Below, piece by piece: positions 9,841-12,410 of a stretch of 64,000 nucleotides of DNA (its first letter is position 1; the number at the start of each line of letters is the position of its first letter). The position numbers and the translations under genes were made by a program. The stretch spans positions 163,569 through 227,568 of the forward strand of contig PNKV01000005.1 of the NCBI GenBank assembly GCA_013822685.1, read 5' to 3'. The DNA comes from Leptothrix sp. (in: b-proteobacteria) (GTDB lineage Bacteria; Pseudomonadota; Gammaproteobacteria; Burkholderiales; Burkholderiaceae_C). Below the pieces are notes generated by a model that ran no database searches, was not told where the DNA came from, and saw only the letters and a list, made by a program, of their open reading frames with translations.

Positions 9841-11445
9841 ATGAAAAAACATTTTGTACTGGCGATAAATAATATTGTCAAGTACGGAGATACGGATATT
9901 TTTCCGTTCCCATACGAAACAAGGTTATTCGACGATATGACCGATGAGGTCGCAATATCTCTCGTTGAGACCCACACTCACTTTGAAGCTCGCCTAATTG
10001 AAGCTCCTCCGGTAAACATCAGCACATTCTCCACTTTAGGCTATACAGGCTACAGGTGGTCGACGCAAATTGACCCCTATTGGAACGCGTACTTTCTTGG
10101 AGTAACGTTATCGCTAGCCGAAAAAATTGAGCAGGCGCGACTTTCCCCATCCAGCGTTTACTCATATCGATTCAAGCCAGACAATAGGGAATCCAGTCTC
10201 TTTGATAAATCGGTTACCTGGCGAAATTTTCAACAAGACAGTCTCGATTATTGCCGATCAAACGATCAGATTAAGTTCGTCGTTACCTGCGACATTGCAG
10301 ATTTCTATACCAGAATCTATCACCACCGGCTGGAAAACGCACTGGACAGAATCGATCGCAGTAAAGCAACATCATCAAAGATAAAGAAACTGATTCAGCA
10401 TTTCTCAGGCACCAACTCATATGGACTACCAGTTGGGGGAGCGGCATCCCGCATTCTCGCAGAACTGGCCTTGGACTCTGTCGATCGAATCCTATTCATC
10501 AACGGCATTGAATTTAAGAGATACGTCGACGATTTTGCCGTGTTTTGCACCAGCCGAGAGCACGCGCACTCCTCACTAACATTCATTAGTCGAAAGCTAA
10601 TGGAGAATGAAGGTCTTACGCTTCAAAAGCACAAGACAAGCATTATGTCGAAGGAAGAATTCGTATCTCTAACCGAAGCTAGGCTGAGAGGCTTTGACGA
10701 AGACGAGGGTTCCCCCATGAAGGCTAAATTCATGAGCCTCCCGATCCGATACGACCCCTATTCAGCCAACGCGACTGAACAATATCAGGAGATCAAGAAA
10801 TCATTAGCTGACTTTGATCTTCTTGGAATGCTTAGCTCGGAACTCCAGAAGTCGAAGATAAATCAGCCATTCACCAAGCAACTGGTAAGAGCCTTTGCTG
10901 CGGCTGACGACAAAATTCTCTCTGGCGCATTCAAGATTATATTCAACAACATTCTTGAGTTGTACCCCATATTTACAACCATTCTGCAGGTCGCAATAAC
11001 TCACTGGGGAAGAATTGACGCTGACACTAGACATGTAATTCGGAACTCCGTAATCAGGCTGCTCAGGGATGACTCATTCATTCTAAAGACCGAACTCAAT
11101 CTTGCCTACACAGTTAGACTTCTCTCGCAAGAGAACACCGTAGAGAACCAGACTCTGCTTGCGGATGTGTATCAAAGGAACAGCAGCAGTATTCTGTTAA
11201 CCTCATTGATTACTCAGGTAATGGGAAAATGGGAGGTGCACTTCTGGCTCTCCGATTTGCGCCGAACGTTTGCAACGATGAATCCCTGGCAGCGGCGGAT
11301 CTTCCTCGTATGCTCCTATTTGCTTGGAGACGAGGGCACTCACTGGGTACAACACAACAAGGCCCGGTTTAACTTCATTGAGTCGCTCTACCGCGATTGG
11401 GCTGGAAAGCGAAAGGGTCTTGGAAATCTTTCGGAGGCGCTGTGA
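9841..11445 (+). CDS. Reverse transcriptase, defence-type (UG/Abi/DRT-like), with alpha-helical C-terminal extension
   Basis: RT motif A (VVTCDIADFYTRIYHHRLENAL), motif B (SYGLPVGGAASRILAELAL), motif C (FKRYVDDFAVF); about 230-aa helical C-terminal region ending in MNPWQRRIFLVCSYLLGDEGTHW. Confidence 0.85.
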   Translation: MKKHFVLAINNIVKYGDTDIFPFPYETRLFDDMTDEVAISLVETHTHFEARLIEAPPVNISTFSTLGYTGYRWSTQIDPYWNAYFLGVTLSLAEKIEQARLSPSSVYSYRFKPDNRESSLFDKSVTWRNFQQDSLDYCRSNDQIKFVVTCDIADFYTRIYHHRLENALDRIDRSKATSSKIKKLIQHFSGTNSYGLPVGGAASRILAELALDSVDRILFINGIEFKRYVDDFAVFCTSREHAHSSLTFISRKLMENEGLTLQKHKTSIMSKEEFVSLTEARLRGFDEDEGSPMKAKFMSLPIRYDPYSANATEQYQEIKKSLADFDLLGMLSSELQKSKINQPFTKQLVRAFAAADDKILSGAFKIIFNNILELYPIFTTILQVAITHWGRIDADTRHVIRNSVIRLLRDDSFILKTELNLAYTVRLLSQENTVENQTLLADVYQRNSSSILLTSLITQVMGKWEVHFWLSDLRRTFATMNPWQRRIFLVCSYLLGDEGTHWVQHNKARFNFIESLYRDWAGKRKGLGNLSEAL

Positions 11446-12179
11446 TTTCCGAAATTACATTCTCCAAACGGTTCACTTCGTTCTGGAATGAAACACTTCC
11501 GAACGCGAATAACTACATTCGTCTAATAAATGGTGGGCAGGTTCAGGCCACGCATAAGCCCCTCAAGGCAGCACCCCGAAAGCAGAATGTCGCGCTAGTA
11601 AATGTCTTGGCGTTCGAAATCTACAGACGACTTACAGCCCAGAAGTCATCATTCTCGGTTGTGTCTTCCCCGTCGTTCTTTCGCGGTAGGCTTTTTGCGT
11701 CTAGCATGAAGAGCGCCAGAGAGTACGTAGATCGTTTTGGCACTCATCAGACGTACAAGCTACCTTTGTCGGCTGCAGAACAAAGTCAACTCAAAGAAAT
11801 AGTTCGCCTGACGAACTCGCGATACAACTGGCAACTGTCCCCGACAGTCGATCCGAGATTTGACGGATGCGGGTTCGTTGATCAATGCTACGGGGACATT
11901 ATCATCGGGCAGCGGCTAGTTGAGATAAAGTCTGGCGAACGGACTTTTGGCGTATCTGATCTTCGACAGCTGCTTGTGTACTGCACACTCAATCACTACT
12001 CCAGAGCTCCCGTTCAAATCGACTCTATCGAGATTTTCAACCCCAGGATGGGGGCATGCTTCTCTGAAAAGTTGGAGACCGTTTCGTTGCGTCTCAGCGC
12101 GTTGAACTCTCATGAGCTTTTTGCCGAGATTCAGAAGTACATCTCAGATGGGGCGTTCACAGAGGTCGTTGAAGGGTAG
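11442..12179 (+). CDS. Putative PD-(D/E)XK-fold nuclease, translationally coupled to the RT
   Basis: FDGCGFVDQCYGDIIIGQRLVEIKSGERTFGVSDLRQLLVYCTL fits D-x(n)-ExK plus QxxxY; GTG start overlaps the RT stop (GTGA at 11442-11445) with GGAGG just upstream. Confidence 0.65.
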   Translation: MISEITFSKRFTSFWNETLPNANNYIRLINGGQVQATHKPLKAAPRKQNVALVNVLAFEIYRRLTAQKSSFSVVSSPSFFRGRLFASSMKSAREYVDRFGTHQTYKLPLSAAEQSQLKEIVRLTNSRYNWQLSPTVDPRFDGCGFVDQCYGDIIIGQRLVEIKSGERTFGVSDLRQLLVYCTLNHYSRAPVQIDSIEIFNPRMGACFSEKLETVSLRLSALNSHELFAEIQKYISDGAFTEVVEG

Positions 12180-12185
12180 CAACGA

Positions 12186-12410
12186 ATGCCACAGCGGGCA
12201 GCGCTGAAGCCTACCCCCCGCTCAAGCGAGCGTCAATGGCAACCTATCAGGTCCGGGCCAGTGGTGAGTGGCGAAGTTGTTGCCCGCATGCAAGCCTTCG
12301 GGGCAGAAATCATCGGAGAAATGCAGTACGAAGTTTCCTACCTGCTGGCCTACATCCGAGGACCTGAAGGCATCATCGTCGCCCTTGCCGAACAATTGGG
12401 CCAGCCATGA
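12186..12410 (+). CDS. Small hypothetical protein
   Basis: 74-aa ORF overlapping the start of the DUF4256 gene by 4 bp. Confidence 0.45.
   Translation: MPQRAALKPTPRSSERQWQPIRSGPVVSGEVVARMQAFGAEIIGEMQYEVSYLLAYIRGPEGIIVALAEQLGQP

Follow-up and report, generated by a model that had tools for sequence, protein, structure and literature searches.

We assign the two-gene operon described here, with near certainty, to the DRT type 8 anti-phage systems, and its sequence predicts anti-phage activity for the present copy. The operon lies in a 64,000-nucleotide stretch of DNA, the whole of which is termed the window, and consists of a reverse transcriptase (RT) of the Drt8 family and an adjacent nuclease of the RTasPDDEXK family, with the catalytic residues of both intact. 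In searches with PADLOC-DB 2.0.0 of 2023, the RT matched Drt8 (PDLC03783; 527 bits, E 1.3e-158), its residues 2-524 aligning with profile positions 4-492 of 493, and the nuclease matched RTasPDDEXK (PDLC03797; 200 bits, E 9.1e-60), both scores being far above chance; the runner-up PADLOC model for the RT scored 118 bits (E 8.5e-35). NCBIfam and Pfam profiles gave generic (RVT_1) or sub-threshold RT matches alone for the RT and no match for the nuclease. Comparison with DRT type 8 as defined by these two PADLOC families reveals full-length matches to both, in adjacent, overlapping genes, and no defining difference; the present copy has a GTG start for its nuclease and is located within an integron-like cassette array. 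It is an ordinary, apparently intact member of the type.

The initial annotation had proposed that an RT for defence is coupled to a PD-(D/E)XK nuclease and had considered the pair a candidate undescribed system. The coupling is borne out by family, structure and co-occurrence, but the novelty of the system is not: Drt8 and RTasPDDEXK are both contained in the 2023 PADLOC release, the combination was therefore already in a public library, and DRT8 is published, Mestre et al. 2022 reportedly being the source paper. The profile search against PADLOC that the annotation had suggested places the RT in a known subtype, Drt8, with this same nuclease, which is the outcome that it had itself named as telling against its proposal. 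A paper of 2025 defines DRT8 by its PD-(D/E)XK domain (PMC12596737), and two articles of 2026 report anti-phage activity with a mechanism that is not established (PMC13213688, PMC13314766). DRT8 is among the DRT types that lack a mechanism in recent reviews, and the comparative data yield concrete predictions for it, i.e. a priming residue (Y307), single-stranded DNA (ssDNA) as the substrate class of the nuclease, a pairing that is not due to chance, and natural loci in which the nuclease is interrupted.

Architecture of the RT and the nuclease

The 534-residue open reading frame of the RT contains motifs A (CDIADFY) and C (YVDD) and a B-like motif (GLPVGGAASR), all as initially read. In the predicted model (pLDDT 90.3), an RT domain (residues ~1-285) is followed by a flexible linker (286-310) of low confidence and by a domain (~311-534) that is all-helical, mostly with pLDDT 84-97, in agreement with the helical C-terminal extension that had been claimed. 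The best Foldseek matches of the model are DRT4/UG15, DRT6, AbiA, Abi-P2 and AbiK, and the C-terminal helical-repeat domain is a feature of class 1 UG/Abi RTs (AbiK/AbiA/DRT4-like). The present system resembles AbiA/AbiK/Abi-P2, DRT4 (UG15) and DRT6 in this RT plus C-terminal helical fold, whereas no PD-(D/E)XK partner gene has been described for any of them; a conserved ncRNA was not seen at the present system or its relatives; AbiA differs further in carrying a HEPN domain.

Table 1. Positions of the features of the operon and its surroundings in the window
Feature	Position	Strand	Details	Evidence
Drt8 RT gene	9841..11445	+	ATG start, 534 aa	PADLOC match, predicted fold, invariant active site
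RT motif A, CDIADFY	10288..10308	+	catalytic D151	sequence; D151 invariant 53/53
RT motif C, YVDD	10522..10533	+	catalytic D230 and D231	sequence; both Asp invariant 53/53
DPYS motif with Y307	10753..10764	+	predicted protein-priming tyrosine	invariance, low-confidence linker, AbiA likeness
RTasPDDEXK nuclease gene	11442..12179	+	245 aa, GTG start; catalytic D152, E161, K163, with Q176, Y180	
Variable low-GC island of same-strand gene units, with operon	6605..12268	.		GC, L126 flank comparison
attC-like site	7770..7835	+	R-box GTTAGGT	fold; family of L126 sites
Weak attC-like site	8852..8947	+	R-box GTTAGGC; upstream box overlaps preceding gene's stop	sequence
attC-like site just upstream of operon	9737..9802	+	R-box GTCAGGC, decayed	80% identity
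3' remnant of glyoxalase-family gene at right edge of island	12269..12410	+		aligns to C-terminal part of longer gene at L126:6176-6589

The second gene is present as described, its GTG overlapping the RT stop by 4 bases (GTGA). Within it, GDIIIGQRLVEIKSG...LRQLLVY constitutes a PD-(D/E)XK core with a QxxxY motif of the RecB/Cas4 type, and the AF2 model (pLDDT 94.4), in which helices precede the PD-(D/E)XK core, agrees with that reading, as does conservation: D152, E161, K163, Q176 and Y180 of the nuclease are invariant in 53/53 homologues, together with D151, D230 and D231 of the RT. Sequence searches of the PDB and Pfam with the nuclease returned nothing useful, so that the fold search was decisive; the closest PDB folds were Dna2 (E 3e-4) and then, with weaker E-values, AdnAB, RecBCD, MGME1 and Cas4. 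The model supports placement in the Dna2/RecB/MGME1/Cas4 fold clan without close kinship, and TM-scores of at most 0.44 imply clan membership alone. The nuclease has in common with these nearest solved folds the PD-(D/E)XK core with its D, ExK and QxxxY elements, but differs from them in lacking a helicase and any sequence-level PDB or Pfam match.

Pairing and distribution

A single-sequence RT search of genome contigs gave no match, and an alignment of nuclease-linked RTs was needed to gather the relatives, 70 loci from GTDB genomes with hosts in the Pseudomonadota, Bacteroidota, Acidobacteriota, Actinomycetota and other phyla. Profile searches found the nuclease directly 3' of the RT at every locus whose RT is full-length and whose contig continues beyond it; the loci without a nuclease (L084, L089-L091, L093-L095) are contig ends or have truncated or unmatched RTs. 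The relatives having been found via nuclease-bearing RTs, this figure is valid for that clade only, within which the RT and the nuclease are one unit with obligate pairing. Among 399 genomes of the same order, 4/4 strong nuclease matches adjoin a Drt8 RT. The 4-base overlap recurs in 26 of the 67 measured pairs, and overlaps of 11-23 bases account for most of the others, with 11, 14 and 23 bases being common. The RT and nuclease distance matrices correlate strongly over 50 shared loci (Mantel r 0.964, versus at most 0.23 in 2000 permutations), which is a sign of co-inheritance and not of contact, since any co-inherited gene pair would correlate.

The PADLOC Drt8 model is broader than this clade, in that it picks up RTs that lack this nuclease as well (L011, L013, L014, L015, L103-L105); a match to it alone does not, therefore, imply a nuclease. 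In a phylogeny of 61 RTs, those with the nuclease group to one side of one supported branch (99/97), at which, however, long branches meet, and the contig of L014 stops just after its RT. No recognisable nuclease partner adjoins the RTs of L103, L104, L105 and L013; at L104 a 244-residue gene lies ~230 bases downstream.

The RT tree is discordant with host taxonomy, which points to horizontal transfer. Copies of the operon are also present in viral contigs of IMG/VR, in the company of phage-type genes (L024, L025). Searches by tblastn with the nuclease against plasmids and phages, and with the RT against phages, gave no match, and the plasmid matches were by RT alone, at 25-37% identity. Weak RTasPDDEXK matches at L006-L008, beside which no RT was seen, were rejected as pairs, L008 being PDC-S61 and L006 also matching PDC-S61. 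The PDC-S61 proteins, a candidate defence family (L008:1114-1905, L006:1429-2133), share their PD-(D/E)XK part with RTasPDDEXK, and this shared part suggests that the nuclease family may be wider than the RT operons.

Priming and the role of the nuclease

The best explanation of these data, in which our confidence is about even, is untemplated, Y307-primed ssDNA synthesis coupled to a nuclease effector that is activated by infection. In the mechanism that we infer, the RT would be a class-1-like Abi/DRT polymerase making untemplated ssDNA covalently primed on its own Y307, the helical domain would guide the growing DNA strand, and the translationally coupled nuclease of the Dna2/RecB/Cas4 clan would be retained in the RT-DNA complex, or gated by it, until infection releases or activates it to attack phage and/or host DNA.

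Y307 is predicted to be the priming residue on the basis of conservation, the structural model and analogy. It is conserved without exception in 53/53 sequences and in 8/8 RTs of the wider Drt8-model set, it is the only fully invariant Ser/Thr/Tyr within the low-confidence segment of the RT model, and it lies 76 residues past D231. AbiA has a flexible linker with a priming tyrosine at a place equivalent to that of the Y307 linker: its loop 290-310, which lies between the RT domain and the helical domain, carries the priming residues Y298 and Y303; Y298 is conserved and has the greater importance in vivo (PMC11077055). In DRT1 the priming residue is S402, 77 residues past D325 (PMC13275509). 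AbiK differs in priming from its N-terminal loop, at Y44 (PMC9508834), so that the position of the priming residue varies within the class. Protein-primed untemplated ssDNA synthesis is published for Abi enzymes, as is protein-primed untemplated synthesis for DRT4, and no conserved non-coding block was seen upstream of the RT among relatives 45-68% identical in the RT. DRT1, an RT with a nitrilase, resembles the present system in coupling an RT to an effector enzyme, and protein-primed untemplated synthesis has been published for it, but it differs in that its effector is fused, its priming residue is a serine and its RT is of class 3.

With respect to the nuclease, for which the fold model predicts ssDNA as the substrate, several observations bear on an effector role. 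At three loci the RT is intact and the nuclease is interrupted by a single in-frame stop (L032:8175-8177, L081:7781-7783, L092:7862-7864), which speaks against the idea that the RT is harmless only when the nuclease is present; these stops could be sequencing errors and are otherwise candidates for natural nuclease loss. Downstream of two other Drt8-model RTs there is instead an HNH-domain gene (L011:3068-3817) or a DUF6997 gene (L015:522-1349), the latter carrying an E-x-K-like motif. We count this presence of other genes in the place of the nuclease in favour of an effector role, as we do the listing of Cap17 effectors with DRT8 in a review table (PMC10952713), and, judged from gene content, a possible exchange of partners at both loci would make the two genes candidate partners. 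In DRT1, defence needs the active sites of both the RT and the effector (PMC13275509). Two points run counter to the effector view: by analogy with DRT3 and DRT9, where nucleases restrain rather than execute, the nuclease might have a restraining function, and the Drt8-model RTs of L103-L105 have no evident effector adjacent.

The first of these points leads to the alternative, which we regard as possible but doubtful, that the nuclease trims or clears the ssDNA made by the RT until a phage factor blocks it, whereupon the accumulated DNA would be the toxic or phage-sequestering agent. A fold clan comprising Dna2, RecB, MGME1 and Cas4 suits ssDNA, the close coupling of the two genes suggests that RT and nuclease are made in nearly equal amounts, and RecBCD and ExoI restrain the products of DRT3 and DRT9, their loss being synthetically lethal (PMC13174585); the interrupted nucleases beside intact RTs, and the related RTs with different neighbours or none, argue the other way. 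A related proposal, also tentative, is that DRT8 is a self-contained system for making and breaking ssDNA, in which infection would tip the balance between Y307-primed random-DNA synthesis and degradation by the nuclease. If so, a Dna2/Cas4-type nuclease of its own would give the system the control that host nucleases supply in DRT3 and DRT9.

That the nuclease instead processes the product, freeing it from Y307 or sizing it to give the active molecule, with neither the RT alone nor the nuclease being toxic, is improbable in our view: pairing within the clade, the strict co-divergence of the RT and the nuclease, and the ssDNA-nuclease fold are in keeping with such a role, but the class-1 RTs AbiK, AbiA and DRT4 defend without a dedicated partner. 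A non-defence origin, i.e. an RT with a housekeeping function or from a mobile element (group II intron, retron or DGR) beside an unrelated neighbour, could appeal to the generic RVT_1 match but is extremely improbable, given that Drt8 leads the next family by >400 bits, that the RT lacks a maturase domain, as the initial annotation had stated, that an Rfam search of the window gave no match and thus no known intron or retron RNA, that the distribution is patchy and at odds with host taxonomy, and that the operon is found in viral contigs and in a cassette array. With retron and maturase models also far below their curated cut-offs, a retron or group II intron RT is not supported.

Genomic setting

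An aspect that the initial annotation overlooked is that the operon is set in an integron-like cassette array. It forms the final unit of an island of 5.6 kb with a GC content of 0.39-0.52, compared with 0.60-0.69 in the flanks, in which same-strand genes are separated by attC-like sites (Table 1). A sister genome (L126) with flanks ~95% identical has entirely different genes at the same chromosomal site (~2685-6447), among them those for two hypothetical proteins of 345 and 299 residues and for a protein with a RelA/SpoT domain; the attC-like sites between them belong to the family seen in the window. The first attC-like site in the window folds well as bottom-strand DNA (z -5.6, versus -2.9 for the top strand); the decayed site just upstream of the operon is 80% identical over 71 nt to positions 7769-7839 and is of the same family as the sister-genome sites; the folding of the weak site is no better than that of shuffled sequences. 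No attC-like site was seen 3' of the nuclease, which may be explained by the island edge cutting into a gene of the glyoxalase family whose sister-genome version is longer.

None of the sites in the window matched a strict attC pattern, and the integron reading therefore rests largely on the sister-genome comparison; a BLAST search with one attC-like site against plasmids gave no match. From the arrangement of genes and sites, the island is likely a cassette array without an adjacent integrase and a true integron remnant. With this setting, the locus is a further case of a DRT defence operon of two genes located among integron-type cassettes.

Elsewhere in the genome, near the end of another contig, there is a full, intact intI (464 bits, with a cut-off of 265). 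It belongs to a chromosomal integron (L102, G000:C3:1-4421) that has three or more near-perfect attC sites of 94 nt, which differ in type from those near the DRT8 operon; the contig end cuts this integron. The cassette array of the operon also encodes a DUF4062 protein (window positions 7868-8857), possibly the product of another defence gene.
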